A stretch of DNA of 37,089 bases. It comes from Dethiobacter sp. (lineage in GTDB: Bacteria > Bacillota > Dethiobacteria > Dethiobacterales > Dethiobacteraceae). The notes under the pieces are model-generated. The model made no database searches, was not told the DNA's origin, and was given only the letters and a program-made list of their open reading frames with translations. Both the position numbers and the translations under genes were made by a program. Shown here one piece after another: positions 172 to 37,089 of the stretch. The stretch covers positions 1 through 37,089 of the forward strand of contig JAGXTN010000034.1 of assembly GCA_018333455.1 (NCBI GenBank). The letters are read 5' to 3'. Within the stretch, counting starts at the first letter, position 1, and each line of letters starts with the position of its first letter.

Positions 172-263
172 ATAAGCGATTTGCATCATTGAGCATACTT
201 GTTCATCTAGTAGAGACAATAATAGATGATGAAGTTGTGAAAAGAAATAAAGGAGGCTGTTGA

Positions 264-2393
264 ATGTCAATTAAAGATATTGTAAAATCGTATACGCGAA
301 GTGCAAAAAGAATGAGTGGAGATGAGAAAACCTTTGCTGCAGACTTGACCAGCAAAGACTTTAATGATCCCGCTGTCCACGAGCATACTCATGAAGCTAA
401 GGTGGATTATACGAAGATTAAGAAGTCACCCCCCATGGAAGAAGTCCATAAGTGGCAGAGAGATCATATCAAAACAGATGATCAAACCAAAGAAGGCTAC
501 CCCCTGAATGTAATTATTGATCCGACAATGCGGGAAATGTACCAGGTTGTAAATAATGCCGGTATGACCAACGTCTTCGACCGTTTTAGTGAACAGCAAC
601 CCACTCAATGTAAGTTTTGTATAGAAGGTCTATCCTGTCAGCTTTGTGCTAACGGCCCCTGCCGGATAAGCCAGAAAGCACCTCGGGGCGTGTGTGGTGT
701 TGATGCCCATACCATGGTGGCCAGAAACTTCATGTACCGCCACGTAACCATTGGTACATCGGCCAACATCTTCCACTGTCATCAAGCGGCAAGAACGCTA
801 AAGGCTGCTGGTGACCACCCTGAAAGTGGTTTAAAGATCCGTGACGCAGAAAAACTGAAAAAATATGCGGATATGGCTGGGCTAAACGCTAATCAATCAT
901 TAGAGAAGTTAGCTGTGGAGTTTGCAGAATGGGTTATCCGTGACATCCATGCACCCTTCCATATAGAATCCAAAACAGTAGAAGCATTTGCGCCCACGAA
1001 GAGAAAAGAACTCTGGCGGAAACTAGGCTTATTCCCTGGTGGCGGCTATAGTGAAGTTGCTTACGCACAAACACAATGTATGACCAACTTTACTTCCGAT
1101 CCCATTGAATTTTTACTGAGAAGCGTGCGTCTAGGCATTGCCAACGAATACCAAGGGTTGTTTATGCTGAACATCCTGCAGGAAATTTTAATGGGTACGC
1201 AGGAAATAACAATGAAAAAACAGAATATGGGCTTACTTAAAGAAAATAGAATTAATGTGATCACCAATGGTCACATGCCGCTGTTAGCCCACGTGGCCAT
1301 AGATCTGGCATCTAGTGATGAATGGCAGCAGAAAGCAAAAGATGCTGGAGCAGAGGGGATTCAAATCCTTGGGCATGTATGCGAGGGGCAGCAGCTCATC
1401 AATTATGAGGGAACCAACGACCAGAAATCCTACGTTGGGCAAGAGGGTGAATGGCTCTCTCAAGAATATTTGCTTGCCACAGGTGTGGTGGATCTGTTTA
1501 TGTTTGACTATAACTGCACTATGCCCACGATGCCCATTTTTGCTAAAAAATTTGGTACAAAACTTTTAAGCGCTCACCCAGTAATTAAGCTGCAAGGGAC
1601 GGAAACCCTTGACTTTATACCGGAAAAAATGAAAGAACAGGCAGCAAAGGCCCTGGAGATGGCGATTGAAGGCTTTAAAAAACGTAAGGCTGAGAACAGA
1701 GAAACGTATATACCGCCTCATGTTTCAGATTGCATGGTAGGCTTTAGCACAGAGTCTATCAAAAAAGCCTTGGGTGGAAGTTTACAACCTCTGATTGACC
1801 AAATAGCTAACGGTAACATTCGGGGGATAGCCACCATCGTCGGTTGTACCACTGCCCGTTACGGTCAAGGTGGAAGCAACATTTTTAAGATTACAAAGGG
1901 CTTAATCGAAAACAATATCCTGGTTCTCTCTGGCGGCTGTACATCATCAGTGATGGAGTATACAGGGCTCACCAATCCAAAAGCAGCGGATGAATGTGGT
2001 GAAGGACTAAAAGCTGTGTGCAAACAGTTAGGCATCCCACCTGTACTGTCTTACGGCGCCTGTGTAGATATTGGCAAGATGACCCATACAGCCATGGAAC
2101 TGGCAGATGCGTTAAACATTGACACTAATGCCCTGCCACTGGTTATCGGTGCACCGGAGTATCTGGAACAGAAAGCTGTGGCCGATGCCTGTACCGCCGT
2201 TGCTCTAGGCTGGCTTGTCCATGTAGCACCCGTGCCGTCCATTACCGGTAGTGATGTGGTGGTCAAAACCCTGACCGAGACCACGGAAACTCTAGGTCTA
2301 GGTAAAGTGGTTGTAGAAATGGATGCAGAGAATACAGTTCAGATCTACGTAGATCATATTGAGAAAAAACGCAAAGAATTAGGGTTAGGCTAG
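264..2393 (+). CDS. cooS: Anaerobic Ni-Fe-S carbon monoxide dehydrogenase, catalytic subunit
   Basis: CooS/AcsA-family enzyme that interconverts CO and CO2 in the cytoplasm as a homodimer. All C-cluster ligands known for the family are recognisable: His337 (NGHMP), Cys373 (GHVCEG), Cys418 (NCTMP), Cys528 (VGCTT), Cys559 (GGCTS) and Cys600 (GACVD). B-cluster cysteines fit Cys125, Cys128, Cys133 and Cys144. The bridging D-cluster motif is CX2C (Cys116, Cys119) with Ser124 where most CODHs have the second D-cluster cysteine; this is the form described for the [2Fe-2S] D-cluster of Desulfovibrio vulgaris CODH. At 709 residues it is longer than typical members (about 630-680) because of some 75-80 extra N-terminal residues without cysteine. 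AAAGGAGG sits seven bases before the ATG. No cooF, cooC or acs gene lies beside it within the window, so its electron partner and maturation factor are unknown. The family call is very secure; the physiological role is not. Confidence 0.97.
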   Translation: MSIKDIVKSYTRSAKRMSGDEKTFAADLTSKDFNDPAVHEHTHEAKVDYTKIKKSPPMEEVHKWQRDHIKTDDQTKEGYPLNVIIDPTMREMYQVVNNAGMTNVFDRFSEQQPTQCKFCIEGLSCQLCANGPCRISQKAPRGVCGVDAHTMVARNFMYRHVTIGTSANIFHCHQAARTLKAAGDHPESGLKIRDAEKLKKYADMAGLNANQSLEKLAVEFAEWVIRDIHAPFHIESKTVEAFAPTKRKELWRKLGLFPGGGYSEVAYAQTQCMTNFTSDPIEFLLRSVRLGIANEYQGLFMLNILQEILMGTQEITMKKQNMGLLKENRINVITNGHMPLLAHVAIDLASSDEWQQKAKDAGAEGIQILGHVCEGQQLINYEGTNDQKSYVGQEGEWLSQEYLLATGVVDLFMFDYNCTMPTMPIFAKKFGTKLLSAHPVIKLQGTETLDFIPEKMKEQAAKALEMAIEGFKKRKAENRETYIPPHVSDCMVGFSTESIKKALGGSLQPLIDQIANGNIRGIATIVGCTTARYGQGGSNIFKITKGLIENNILVLSGGCTSSVMEYTGLTNPKAADECGEGLKAVCKQLGIPPVLSYGACVDIGKMTHTAMELADALNIDTNALPLVIGAPEYLEQKAVADACTAVALGWLVHVAPVPSITGSDVVVKTLTETTETLGLGKVVVEMDAENTVQIYVDHIEKKRKELGLG

Positions 2394-20491: not shown

Positions 20492-22270
20492 CTAGGCAGT
20501 TACCACATACTTATTCACTTTGAAAACTGCATCTGCAATTTCGCGCTTCAACGCAAATACATTTTCCTGCTCGTAGCGAGTCAATTTGCGCAGGATAGAA
20601 AAGAGGGTGCGTCTGGCATCGCCTTCTTCCATGGCGGCGACTACTTCCTTAGCCCAAGCTTCAAATTTTGGAACCAGTTCGTTTACATAGCAGACGGTCA
20701 TCTTGATCGCCAGAGCGGCAGCATCTTCGCCTTTTGCGGCGGCAATTTTCTTCGCTCTTAGCATTGCCGTTTCTGCAGAGAAAATTTCGTTAACCATGTC
20801 GGCCATCCGACCTAAAATTTCCTGTTCTTTAATCAATTTCTCACCATATTTTTGTGCGGCAGTACCAGATATCAGCAGGAATATCTTCTTTAAATTCTCA
20901 ATGGCCTGCACTTCTTTGCCTAACAGTTCATCTGACTCTTCCTGCATTGAGGGCATTAAAAGTTCTTCCTGTAGTTTCATCGCAGCCTGAATTAGCGGAA
21001 TTTCACCTTTTTGCGCTTTTTTCAAGAGCGTAGCCGGAATAATCAGACGGTTAATTTCATTAGTCCCTTCAAAAATCCGATTAATTCGGCTGTCACGATA
21101 AACTCTTTCCACGGCGTACTCCTGGCTATAACCGTAACCGCCATGAATCTGAACTGCTTCATCCGCCACAAAATCCAGTGTCTCAGAGCCAATAATTTTC
21201 ACGATAGAGCATTCCGTGGCATATTCTTGAATACCCTCTGCCACTTTCTGACCTGCATCTTCAGCGTCCATATCCAAATTTTCCACCAGCGAGTTAATTA
21301 AACCGCCGGTACGGTAGCAAATACTTTCCGTGACATAAGTACGAATATTCATATCGGCAATTTTACTCTTAATCAAACCAAACTTAGCAATAGGCAAATT
21401 GAACTGGACACGCTCCTGCGCATAGCGGGCGGCCAACTCAATGGCATATTTTGCTGCGCCGGAGCAACCTACGCCCAGTTTATAGCGGCCGATATTGAGA
21501 ATGTTAAACGCCACCTGATGCCCTTTACCCACTTGGCCCAGCAGATTTTCCACAGGCACTTTGGCATCTTCAAAAATTACAGAACAGGTGGATGAACCTT
21601 TAATGCCCATCTTGTGTTCTTCGGCGCCGATGGAAACGCCCGGCGCATCACGATCGACAATAAAAGCTGTGAAATGTTGCCCATCTACTTTGGCATAGGT
21701 GACAATCACATCTGCCCAAGAAGCGTTGGTAATAAACTGCTTAGAGCCGTTAAGAATATAATGTTTCCCGTCCTCAGAGAGTACCGCCCTTGTTTTGGCG
21801 TTCATGGCATCAGAGCCGGCTTCGGCCTCTGTCAGTGCGTAGGCTGCTACTTTTTGACCTGAAGCCAAGCCAGGCAGGTAGCGTTTCTTTTGCTCCTCAT
21901 TGCCAAAAAATAGAATGGGTAAAGTGCCAATCCCTGTGTGAGCGCCAAAGGCTACGGAAAAAGAACCACCACGTGATACCTGTTCAGCAATGATCAGCGA
22001 AGTGATTTTATCTGCTTCCGCTCCACCGAACTTTTCAGGGATATCACTGCCTAAAAAACCTAACTCCCCCATTTGCCGCATAAGGCCAACGGTGACGCCA
22101 TCTTCCATTTTTTCAATGCTATCAGTAACAGGCATCACTTTTTCTTTAATGAAATTGGCTATCGTGTCGCTTACCATTTTATGGAAATCATTAAAATCTT
22201 CTGGTGTGTACACCTGTTCCGGTTCAGTCTGAGAAATCAGGAAAGAACCGCCCTTGATTAATTCTGTCAT
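20492..22270 (-). CDS. fadE: Acyl-CoA dehydrogenase FadE
   Basis: A 592-residue flavoprotein that oxidises acyl-CoA to enoyl-CoA. The three ACAD domains are visible: helical N-terminal part, beta domain (YALTEAEAGSDAMNAKT, WADVIVTYAKV), and C-terminal helical part (ERVQFNLPIAKFG, AVQIHGGYGYSQEYAVERVYRDSRINRIFEGTNEINRLI). The catalytic Glu is expected in FEGTNE. About 190 further C-terminal residues match the long form of Bacillus FadE (YusJ, 594 residues). It is last in fadN-fadA-fadE, with AAGGAGG before the ATG. The electron acceptor (ETF) is not encoded here. Confidence 0.95.
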   Translation of the reverse strand: MTELIKGGSFLISQTEPEQVYTPEDFNDFHKMVSDTIANFIKEKVMPVTDSIEKMEDGVTVGLMRQMGELGFLGSDIPEKFGGAEADKITSLIIAEQVSRGGSFSVAFGAHTGIGTLPILFFGNEEQKKRYLPGLASGQKVAAYALTEAEAGSDAMNAKTRAVLSEDGKHYILNGSKQFITNASWADVIVTYAKVDGQHFTAFIVDRDAPGVSIGAEEHKMGIKGSSTCSVIFEDAKVPVENLLGQVGKGHQVAFNILNIGRYKLGVGCSGAAKYAIELAARYAQERVQFNLPIAKFGLIKSKIADMNIRTYVTESICYRTGGLINSLVENLDMDAEDAGQKVAEGIQEYATECSIVKIIGSETLDFVADEAVQIHGGYGYSQEYAVERVYRDSRINRIFEGTNEINRLIIPATLLKKAQKGEIPLIQAAMKLQEELLMPSMQEESDELLGKEVQAIENLKKIFLLISGTAAQKYGEKLIKEQEILGRMADMVNEIFSAETAMLRAKKIAAAKGEDAAALAIKMTVCYVNELVPKFEAWAKEVVAAMEEGDARRTLFSILRKLTRYEQENVFALKREIADAVFKVNKYVVTA

Positions 22271-22296
22271 TTTGCTTTCCTCCTTTAATCTTCGCT

Positions 22297-23472
22297 TTAG
22301 ACTAATTCAAAAAGGCCTGCGGCACCCATGCCGCCACCAATACACATGGACACGACGCCATACCGAGCCTTTTGCCGCTTCATTTCAGCTAGCAATGTGA
22401 CGGTAAGTTTGGAACCTGTGCATCCCAGCGGGTGGCCAAGGGCGATGGCCCCGCCATTGACGTTGACCTTCTCTTGGTCTAATCCCAAGGTACGCACAAC
22501 TGCCAATGCTTGGGCGGCAAAAGCTTCATTAAGTTCAAAAAGATCAATTTGTTCCTTGTCTATGCCGGCTAACGCCAATAGTTTGGGAATTGCCGCCACG
22601 GGACCTATGCCCATTACTTCGGCTTCAACGCCTGCCACAGCGTAGCCGCGGTAAACGGCAAGCGGAGTAAGACCCAACTCTTCAGCTTTTTCCCGGGACA
22701 TAAGCAGTACGGCTGCCGCACCGTCGCTAGTTTGCGAAGAATTGCCTGCGGTGACAGAGCCTCCCTGCATAAAGGCAGGGCGAAGTGAAGCCAATTTCTC
22801 GGCGGTAGTATCAACACGTACACCGTCGTCCATGGTAAACACTTCATTTTCCACCACTAGCCGCCCTTTGCCGTCGAAAGACCTCTTCTTTAGCGGTACC
22901 GGAACAATTTCATCGTTAAACTTACCTGACGCAATGGCAGCCGCCGCCAGCCGATGGCTCCTTTCGGCAAACATGTCTTGGTCTCCCCGACTGATTTCAT
23001 AGCGGGCTGCCACACGCTCTGCCGTTAAACCCATATTCATATAAGCCTGCGGATACTCTTTCATCAATGTTGGATTCGCAGCCATCTTGTTCCCGCCCAT
23101 GGGCACCGCGCTCATGCTTTCCACGCCGCCGGCAATAATTACATCGACCAAACCGGTCTGAATTTTTGCAGCAGCCAAAGCAATGCTTTCTAAACCGGAA
23201 GAGCAGAAACGATTTACCGTTAAACCTGATACTGTTGGTGGAAATTTAGCAATCTGAGCTGCAATGCGACCCACGTTCATCCCCTGTTCCGCCTCTGGAA
23301 ATGCGCAACCCAAAATAACGTCTTCCACTAGATCAGGTGATATCCCCGCTCGCTTCACCACTTCCTGCAAAACAAGCGCTGCCATATCGTCTGGTCGTAT
23401 ATCTTTCAGTCCACCGCGCTTCGCTCTCCCTACCGGAGTACGGGCTGCAGAAACGATTACCGCTTCTTTCAT
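22297..23472 (-). CDS. fadA: Acetyl-CoA acyltransferase (3-ketoacyl-CoA thiolase) FadA
   Basis: A 391-residue thiolase that performs the final thiolytic step of beta-oxidation. Nucleophile Cys90 is in [11 protein letters not shown]. The second catalytic set is [10 protein letters not shown], His in [14 protein letters not shown] and Cys in [12 protein letters not shown]. It lies between fadN and fadE with 28- and 26-base gaps and an AGGAGGG ribosome binding site. The order matches the fadNAE operon of Bacillus. Confidence 0.96.
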
Positions 23473-23500
23473 CTTAATCCCTCCTATCTGAATAATTAAT

Positions 23501-25867
23501 TTAGTTCCGTAACGGCTTACCTGTTTTTAACAAGTGCGCCATCCGCTGTTGTGTTTTCGGCTGCATACAAAGCTCCACAAATACTTCCCGCTCAAGATCA
23601 AGCAGATATTGTTCAGTTACCCAGGTGTTTGCCGTCACATTTCCGCCTGTCATGATATAGCCCAGTCTTTCAGCTAGGAAAGCGTCATATTCTGAGATTT
23701 GGAGACCTTCCTTCATGTTATAGAGACCTGCTTTGAGCGTCGCCAAGCCATTCTCACCGATTACCCTGATTTTTCTGGAAACAGGTGGTTTATAACCGGC
23801 GATGGCCATACCAAGTACAGCTTGCTTTGCTTCAAAAATCAAACGGTCATGGTTAGGCACAAAGCCATCTGCCGGGCGCATATAGCCAAACTTCACGGCC
23901 TCCTTGGCACTGGTGCTCACTTTCGCCTGAGCCACAGTCATGAAGCCGGCCACAATCAACTGGGTCAGATCGACCGCCTCATTGTCCATTACCGTTTCCA
24001 CGCTGCGCAAGACCATTTCCTTTGTGCCGCCACCGGCAGGTATCACACCCACGCCCAATTCGACCAGCCCCATGTAAGTTTCCGCCGCAGCCAAAATCCG
24101 ATCGGAGTGGGCCAGCACTTCGTAACCGCCGCCCAACGCCATACCATGGGGAGCTGCTACCACCGGCTTACTGCAGTATTTCAGACGCATCAGGGAACTC
24201 TGGAAGTGACGAACCATCATGTGCAGTTCATCCCATTCTCCGGCCTGAGCCTCCATTAGAATCATCATTAAGTTTGCACCGACACAGAAATTCTTAGCAT
24301 GATTGGCAATAACCAACCCTTCCCAGTTCTTCTCCACTTCCTCAGCAGACTTGGTAATCATGGAAAGAACGTCCGCGCCGATCGCCTGACGGACAGAATG
24401 GAACTCTAGGCAGACCACTCCATCACCGATATCAATCAGACTGGCACCAGCGTTAGACTTTACTACGCCACTCTTTTCTTTAAAGTTGGGAAGATAAATG
24501 GTACCAAAAAGATTAGGCATCTCTTGATAGGCTTTAGTTTTAAAATCATAAAAATACGTTTTCCCATCTTCTTTTTTATAAAATGACGCTATTCCTGCAG
24601 CCAGCATCTCTGTCACCATAGGGGGCACCGTGCCACCTTCAGCAGCTATACGCTCAGCCGCTTCTTTGACGCCGATGGCATCCCATGTTTCAAAGGGGCC
24701 CATTTCCCAGTTAAAACCCCAGCGCATGGCTCTGTCTACGGAAAGGATATCATCAGCAATCTCTGCAGCTTTTAGCGCTGAGTAGACCATCATACCACGT
24801 AGCGACTTCCAAGCAAAGATGCTACCTTTATCGCCTGCTTTAAGCAAGGCGCGTACTCTGCCTGGAACAGATGTAGCGTTCTTTGCCGCTTCCAAACTGG
24901 CAAATTTTGCTTTCTTCTGCTCTCGATATTCCATACTCTCCATTTCCAGAGTTAGAATCCGCTTTTCTTTGCCACTCTTTTCTTTCTTATAAAAACCCTG
25001 ACCGGTTTTCTCCCCCAGCCAGCGCCTCTTATTCATTTCTTCCAAAAACGGCGGGATTTTAAAAGCATCTTTCTCCCAGCCCTCTGATACTTTTTCACCC
25101 ACATTTTGCGCCACATGCAAAAAAATGTCAAGACCAACCATATCCAATGTACGGAATGTGGCACTCTTGGGGCGCCCCATGGCCGGACCGGTAACTGCAT
25201 CTACTTCTTCCGGCGTCAGCCCCTCTTCCTGCATGGCGACAGCCGTAGACAACAGACCGTAGACCCCAATCCGGTTGCCAATAAAGTTGGGCGTATCTTT
25301 TGCTAAGACAACACCTTTACCCAAGACTCTGTCTCCGAAATCCTTCATAAACTCTACAATGGCAAGGTCAGTGTCAGCACCGGGAATAATTTCAAGCAAT
25401 TTCATATAACGAGGCGGATTAAAAAAGTGTGTCCCCAAAAAGTTTTTGCGAAATTCTGGTGAACAATCTGCAACCATTTCATTGATAGAAAGTCCGGAAG
25501 TATTACTGGAAACGATCATGCCTGAATTCCAGTATTTTTCCACCCGCGCAAAAAGATTTTTCTTAATTTCCATTTTTTCAGCCACTACTTCAATGACCCA
25601 GTCCACACCCGCAATCTTGTGCAAATCGTCTTCCAAGTTCCCATAAGTAAGCAGACTAACGTCTTCCGCTTGATACAACGGGGAAGGTTTCATTTTTTTT
25701 AGGTTTTCGATTCCTTGCCTAGCCAGCTTGCTCCTGTCACCAGTCGCGGCATCCGGCGGCACGATATCCAAGACAAGGCAAGGAATCCCTACGTTAGCCA
25801 GATGGGCGGCTATACTGGCTCCCATAGTCCCTGCCCCAAGGACAGCAGCATTTTTGATTGTTCTCAT
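23501..25867 (-). CDS. fadN: 3-hydroxyacyl-CoA dehydrogenase / enoyl-CoA hydratase FadN
   Basis: A 788-residue bifunctional beta-oxidation protein. The N-terminal Rossmann domain begins [21 protein letters not shown], with [12 protein letters not shown] and [19 protein letters not shown]. 3HCDH C-terminal domains follow ([40 protein letters not shown]). The C-terminal crotonase domain (from about 480) has [40 protein letters not shown] and [19 protein letters not shown]. This order, dehydrogenase first, is that of Bacillus FadN rather than E. coli FadB. It is the first gene of the operon. Confidence 0.96.
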
Positions 25868-36804: not shown

Positions 36805-36921
36805 GTCTGGCGGAGACCTACTCTCCCAGGGACCTACGTCCCAAGTACCATCGGCGCTGGAGGGCTTAACGGCCGTGTTCGGAATGGGAACGGGTGTGAC
36901 CCCTCCGCCATTTCCGCCAGA
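36805..36921 (-). rRNA. rrf: 5S ribosomal RNA
   Basis: About 117 bases. On the minus strand it runs from TCTGGCGG to CCGCCAGAC, the closing helix. It contains the conserved CACACCCGTTCCCATTCCGA and GAACACGG segments, then GATGGTACTTGGG and GGGAGAGTAGGT. Ends may be off by one or two bases. It follows 23S with a spacer of about 46 bases and no tRNA between. Confidence 0.96.
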
Positions 36922-36967
36922 AAGTTCTTTCAAAACTGCACAGCGAAGCATATTAATATCAAAAGTT

Positions 36968-37089
36968 AAGGTCAAGCCCTCGACCTATTAGTACCGGTAA
37001 GCTTTGACATTGCTGTCTTTACACACCCGGCCTATCAACCAGATCTTCTCTCTGGGGTCTTACCTCGTTTACCGAGCGGGAGAACTTAT
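36968..37089 (-). rRNA. rrl: 23S ribosomal RNA, 3' end (partial)
   Basis: The minus strand reads through GGTTGATAGGCCGGGTGTG, CCGGTACTAATAGGTCGAG and GGGCTTGACCTT, which is the conserved 3' terminus of bacterial 23S rRNA. The gene continues past the right edge of the window. Confidence 0.95.

Follow-up and report, generated by a model that had tools for sequence, protein, structure and literature searches.

Does the CO dehydrogenase-like gene that stands at the start of a Dethiobacter sp. contig, with all C-cluster ligands and a CX2C D-cluster motif, encode an enzyme acting on CO? The window, meaning the whole 37,089-nt stretch of DNA analysed, begins at base 1 of contig C31 of a 2.26-Mb genome in 171 contigs. 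The encoded protein belongs to structural group D-2 within clade D of the CO dehydrogenases (CODHs) and probably does not function as a CO dehydrogenase.

The gene and its surroundings

The open reading frame at 264-2393 on the plus strand is real, and 263 nt are visible upstream of it before the contig edge. The following features were located:

251-256, plus strand: Shine-Dalgarno sequence AGGAGG, 5′ of the ATG start at 264 (sequence)
264-2393, plus strand: gene for a 709-aa CODH-fold protein, group D-2 of clade D (open reading frame, profiles, alignment, tree)
264-512, plus strand: N-terminal extension, residues 1-83, in all D-2 proteins and absent from nearly all other CODHs examined
609-620, plus strand: CX2C D-cluster motif C116-K-F-C119 (alignment to solved CODHs)
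633-635, plus strand: S124, replacing the second D-cluster Cys of CX7C enzymes (alignment)
636-695, plus strand: B-cluster cysteines C125, C128, C133 and C144 (alignment)
765-767, plus strand: N168, where CODHs have the acid-base His (CooS-V: Tyr), the mark of group D-2 (alignment; Table 2 of PMC6344411)
1272-1274, plus strand: H337, C-cluster His ligand (alignment)
1380-1385, plus strand: C373, at the Cys295 site of CODH-II (CooS-V has Glu), then E374, Glu in D-2 only (alignment)
1512-1517, plus strand: N417 (Asn as in CooS-V, Asn337 there), followed by the C-cluster Cys C418 (alignment; PMC9311411)
1845-1847, plus strand: C528, C-cluster ligand (alignment)
1938-1940, plus strand: C559, C-cluster ligand (alignment)
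2061-2063, plus strand: C600, C-cluster ligand (alignment)
2166-2174, plus strand: E635 (Glu494 of HCP, Glu556 of CooS-V) and K637, the catalytic Lys (alignment; PMC6344411; PMC9311411)
2405-2430, plus strand: terminator-like hairpin directly 3′ of the stop codon (sequence, scan)
2447-2478 and 2494-2521: two further terminator-like hairpins (scan)

As had been predicted, the gene is alone in the window, where no cooC, hydrogenase or acs gene was found among the ten large open reading frames checked. The term orphan applies to the locus only: elsewhere in the same genome a search for cooC returned two CooC homologues (contigs C7 and C148), CODH/ACS genes lie on contigs C157 and C7, and two other CooS-type CODHs are encoded besides the window gene. 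On contig C56 (L024, 3470-5374), a second solitary CODH with the canonical His/Lys signature was found, surrounded by genes resembling an Asp23-family gene, rsmD and coaD. Contig C157 (L025, L116) harbours a cluster of genes for an archaeal-type CdhA (TIGR00314, 1028 bits), a protein with a CdhC domain, more CODH/ACS-like proteins and a protein of 899 aa whose CODH domain is preceded by ~270 additional N-terminal residues; an HCP gene lies on the opposite strand.

No riboswitch or leader RNA was found 5′ of the gene in an Rfam search of the window, which returned only rRNA at the window end (36805-37089, at the contig end: 5S rRNA and the last part of 23S rRNA). A palindrome at 34-54 (TTTTCACCC-ATT-GGGTGAAAA) was discarded as a regulon operator, having a single occurrence in the genome even allowing two mismatches. 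Also upstream of the gene, a hairpin at 139-170 (GAGCGAACC/GGTTGGCTC, with a single mismatch) that precedes a T-rich run is either a putative terminator of a lost upstream gene or a putative attenuator. Further along, the minus strand carries a beta-oxidation-type operon at 20492-25867 (acyl-CoA dehydrogenase, thiolase, 3-hydroxyacyl-CoA dehydrogenase/enoyl-CoA hydratase).

Cluster residues and group assignment

The protein matched the profile of the Ni-CODH catalytic subunit (TIGR01702) with 672.6 bits, above the cut-off of 478, and PF03063 with 489.5 bits (E 1.5e-146), while the hybrid cluster protein (HCP) profile TIGR01703 gave 30.6 bits, below its cut-off of 360.8. The nearest PDB chain by sequence was CooS-V (451.7 bits), as was the best match of the AF2 model (Foldseek E 3.8e-49; model pLDDT 76.5, pTM 0.81). 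Confidence at residues 108-145 was too low for the model to be used for D-cluster geometry; residues 1-28 were mostly below a pLDDT of 50, and a helix was modelled at 58-70. Within the N-terminal extension, the first ~60 residues are variable and residues 61-83 conserved, with W64, Q65, R66 and H68 invariant. In D-2 proteins the D-cluster motif begins no earlier than residue 100, against 36-63 in nearly all other CODHs examined; assignment of the extension to a known domain was rejected, with no Pfam or PDB match above noise.

The predicted C116-K-F-C119 motif, with Ser124 at the usual second D-cluster Cys, was confirmed by alignment to the solved CODHs, and the C-cluster ligands were indeed complete (H337, C373, C418, C528, C559 and C600). 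In an alignment of 78 D-2 rows (~71 distinct sequences, one partial row being without some signature residues), the D-, B- and C-cluster residues, N168, E374, E635 and K637 were invariant; since C116, C119 and S124 are among them, the CX2C motif is not a sequencing accident. However, the acid-base His/Lys pair of active CODHs is incomplete, Lys637 being kept and the His replaced by Asn168 in 78 of 78 rows. The original prediction that the protein should be active because all its C-cluster ligands are present is thus not supported, given this Asn, found in all D-2 proteins, and a second shell resembling that of CooS-V (N417, E635).

Table 2 of PMC6344411 (Inoue 2019) classes CODHs by D-cluster type, C-cluster ligands and acid-base His/Lys, and the signature found here (type III; H-C-C-C-C-C; N; K) is that of group D-2 in that table. 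Group E-2 agrees in the type III motif but not in its acid-base His and clade E, while group D-1, that of CooS-V, has Glu instead of C373 and Tyr instead of N168. In a side-by-side comparison of 43 proteins, Asn at 417 and Glu at 635 were common to D-2, CooS-V and the D-3-like proteins; E/F enzymes had Gln at 417 and Ser, Thr, Ala or His at 635, and Asn168 together with Glu374 appeared in D-2 alone. Moreover, the tree split D-2, CooS-V and the D-3-like proteins from D. vulgaris CODH and the other E/F enzymes at 100/100. The kinship with D. vulgaris CODH proposed originally was therefore not borne out, as the window protein clusters with CooS-V in clade D, apart from the D. vulgaris enzyme, which lies in an E-type group. 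The best tree had D-1/CooS-V as the sister of D-2 (support 99/96), while trees pairing D-2 or D-1 with the D-3-like proteins stay unrejected (p 0.076 and 0.13), the branches being long.

Since D-2 lies in clade D and the D. vulgaris enzyme in the E-type group, the CX2C motif they share is convergent: judging from the sequences, it arose separately in clades D and E, whichever topology holds within clade D. A single origin within clade D is favoured, subject to the long branches. Furthermore, CX2C and the Cys295-to-Glu replacement had been described as correlated in the CooS-V subclade (PMC9311411); the D-2 sequences indicate that CX2C can occur with Cys295 intact and that the two are not strictly coupled.

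Both solved CX2C proteins, D. vulgaris CODH (PMC6168284) and CooS-V (PMC9311411), have a [2Fe-2S] D-cluster. The motif therefore agrees with the [2Fe-2S] type assigned in the original prediction, and the cluster type of the window protein itself would follow by analogy. The better oxygen tolerance also proposed was not sustained, having been deduced from the motif alone, while in D. vulgaris tolerance is tied to a rearrangement of the C-cluster as well (PMC6168284). If the protein were a genuine Ni-containing CO dehydrogenase like that of D. vulgaris, with an oxygen tolerance raised by a [2Fe-2S] D-cluster, the CX2C motif, the six C-cluster ligands and Lys637 would be in keeping with it; against this stand the Asn in place of the acid-base His in every D-2 member and the position of the protein in clade D, not E.

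Distribution of D-2 genes and of CODH maturation genes

A total of 17 D-2 genes (the window gene included) were found at about 70% identity or more in a phylum search of 398 genomes, with no further match until 45%. Among named genomes, a scan detected 62 D-2 loci, all in Bacillota where the record gives the group, with hosts including Anaerovirgula, Geosporobacter, Alkaliphilus, Ruminiclostridium, Anaerocolumna, Halonatronum, Orenia and Desulforamulus. The gene is also present in the genus-mate G003 and in the Dethiobacter sp. CROMO_SB3 MAG. In Geosporobacter ferrireducens, a single chromosome has two D-2 genes at separate sites, with identical products (L058, L059). The alanyl-tRNA synthetase (AlaRS) of the window is 90-93% identical to those of genus-mates and 51% to that of Anaerovirgula, against 87% and 90%, respectively, for the D-2 protein; because its identity to Anaerovirgula is far above that of AlaRS, the D-2 family has, by this sequence comparison, probably moved between lineages. 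A solitary gene of patchy occurrence, carried by 4 of 20 family genomes, would suit a protein that is structural or a relic and catalyses nothing itself. Yet D-2 proteins are 70-90% identical across distant Bacillota lineages with many invariant columns, and their spread between lineages is not a relic-like pattern, which makes that explanation very improbable.

No widely conserved coo, acs or hydrogenase neighbour of D-2 genes was seen among 73 loci, and the only conserved upstream element noticed by eye, among the upstream regions listed, was the ribosome-binding site. The search for conserved operon partners yielded nothing beyond a Crp/FNR-family regulator and a methyltransferase in two lineages. 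In particular, a Crp/FNR-family regulator gene lies within ~2.5 kb upstream of D-2 in Desulforamulus and in Alkaliphilus/Natronincola (L103, L107, L111, L035, L036 and L095, L097-L100), and most of these loci also have a glycine/sarcosine-methyltransferase-like gene near D-2, in a different orientation in the two lineages. Two of these regulators, when scanned, reached no family cut-off, that of a CO-sensor family included. Such a regulator gene is not visible in the window because the contig ends.

D-2 was the only CooS-type CODH in 19 of 49 D-2 genomes, several of them complete or single-contig assemblies. CooC was sought with a query encoded beside a CODH gene and matching CooC best in the PDB. 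In these 19 genomes the search gave either no hit or just MinD-like fragments (E about 1e-7), while 19 of the 28 other D-2 genomes searched had a clear CooC (best match E 4e-25 to 1e-163; Fisher p 1.5e-6, kinship ignored). Neither the ACS domain (PF03598) nor CdhA was found in any of the 19. HypB was missing in eight of them (G390, G110, G175, G444, G448, G456, G457 and G462) and present in 11, so nickel handling exists in some of these hosts, for other enzymes. Moreover, nine further genomes had no CooC and no CdhA, and their other CODHs were only of clade B, clade C or D-3-like, as assigned by residue signature or similarity (Tyr/Gln in clade C; Asp for the second C-cluster Cys in clade B). 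Taken with the 19 sole-D-2 genomes, they indicate that D-2 is kept where a canonical CODH and CooC are both absent. Overall, CooC was absent from 28 of 47 D-2 genomes, although the genome of the window gene has it.

HCP was found in 20 of 20 genomes tested (the 19 and the window's own); its co-occurrence was discarded as a clue to function, the phylum base rate (81 of 101) being too high to inform. Immediately 3′ of four clade C-type CODH genes (Tyr/Gln; L126-L128, L133) lies a gene resembling an NAD(P)/FAD oxidoreductase; three of the four are in genomes without CooC.

These distributions bear on both nickel-dependent explanations. D. vulgaris CODH is inactive if made without CooC, while CODH-II and CODH-IV mature in E. 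coli without it given added nickel (PMC6006190), so CooC is not strictly needed. An enzyme of the D. vulgaris kind could draw support from the latter and from the CooC of the window's own genome; the CooC dependence of the D. vulgaris enzyme, set against the many D-2 genomes without CooC, and the 19 hosts without another CooS-type CODH or ACS leave it decidedly unlikely. Alternatively, D-2 proteins could be slow or specialised Ni-containing enzymes, CO scavengers or sensors, in which Asn168 and Glu635 alter proton transfer and the C-cluster is otherwise normal. Their first-shell ligands are complete including Cys295, unlike those of CooS-V, and Crp/FNR-type regulator genes lie near D-2 in two separate lineages. 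However, CooC is missing in most D-2 genomes, CooC and HypB are both missing in eight, and the two regulators fell below every family cut-off, so that we hold this explanation to be unlikely, if less readily dismissed.

Proposed activity and comparison with known relatives

The closest solved relative, CooS-V, combines a CX2C motif and a [2Fe-2S] D-cluster with a hybrid cluster of the Fe-S-O type and is inactive on CO; it showed no detectable NO reduction and turned hydroxylamine over slowly, its Fe-S-O cluster rearranging (PMC9311411). This, together with the lack of CooC in so many D-2 genomes, tells further against the predicted activity. A C-site without the acid-base His, a CooS-V-like second shell and the inactivity of CooS-V on CO favour a CooS-V/HCP-like function over CO oxidation. 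Thus, the explanation we prefer, and consider rather likely, is that of a solitary D-2 member forming a [2Fe-2S]-bridged homodimer whose C-site does not serve CO/CO2 and which acts as a CooS-V/HCP-like redox or stress protein. The CODH-type homodimer would be bridged by a [2Fe-2S] D-cluster held by C116 and C119 of both subunits, and one [4Fe-4S] B-cluster per subunit would provide the usual electron path inward to the buried C-site. At this site the six C-cluster ligands are retained, but Asn occupies the acid-base His position and the second shell carries an Asn and a Glu as in CooS-V; the site would perform no CO/CO2 chemistry at a useful rate. Most likely, it would hold a nickel-poor or nickel-free Fe-S(-O) cluster cycling with the redox state and reacting slowly with small oxidants of the hydroxylamine type, in a role that may be redox or nitrosative stress or sensing.

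Counting against this proposal, besides the CooC-independent maturation of CODH-II and CODH-IV, D-2 keeps Cys295 (C373) and the catalytic Lys, which leaves room for a Ni C-cluster; the loss of Cys295 is thought to make CooS-V a hybrid-cluster protein. A bolder reading, given a little less than an even chance, makes D-2 proteins redox enzymes or sensors of CODH fold and without nickel, whose cluster would be intermediate between C- and hybrid clusters (Cys295 retained, Glu/Asn second shell of CooS-V), in anaerobes without any CO metabolism.

Group D-2 itself has already been described (PMC6344411), though it is uncharacterised; its frequent occurrence as the sole CODH without CooC or ACS appears to be new relative to the literature examined here. 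As far as PMC6344411 was examined, its account of D-2 mentions neither the N-terminal extension, nor hosts with D-2 as their sole CODH, nor the missing CooC. Profile-based annotation labels D-2 proteins CO dehydrogenases, and if they are inactive, surveys that include them in the CO-oxidising potential would err for many Clostridia. Moreover, D-2 separates CX2C from Cys295-to-Glu and may thus represent a natural intermediate in the change of a C-cluster site into a hybrid-cluster site. Its role could be addressed by a single gene deletion in the sole-D-2 hosts, where no other CODH is present.

Compared with known systems, the window protein differs in no tested feature from group D-2 as given in PMC6344411 (representative WP_015926279), which has the same type III D-cluster, complete C-cluster ligands, Asn and Lys, and is likewise bacterial only. 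CooS-V of Carboxydothermus hydrogenoformans (D-1; PDB 7b7q, PMC9311411) shares with D-2 clade D, CX2C with Ser, the Asn before the second C-cluster Cys and the Glu two residues before the Lys; however, it has Glu for Cys295, which D-2 keeps, and Tyr for N168, and its solved chain of 629 residues is without the N-terminal extension. D. vulgaris CODH (E-2; PDB 6b6v, PMC6168284) has CX2C, the six C-cluster ligands and the Lys in common with D-2, but it belongs to clade E, has the acid-base His, and presents Ser at the E635 position, Gln at N417 and Thr for Ser124. The clade D-3-like proteins of the same phylum (L041-L053) share clade D, Cys295 and the Asn and Glu second shell, while they have a CX7C type II D-cluster, Tyr for Asn168 and 42-45% identity to D-2. 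Finally, HCP/hydroxylamine reductase (TIGR01703) shares the prismane fold family and the Glu at the E635 position, whereas D-2 has Cys at the site of the Glu ligand in D-1 and, according to PMC6344411, in HCPs.
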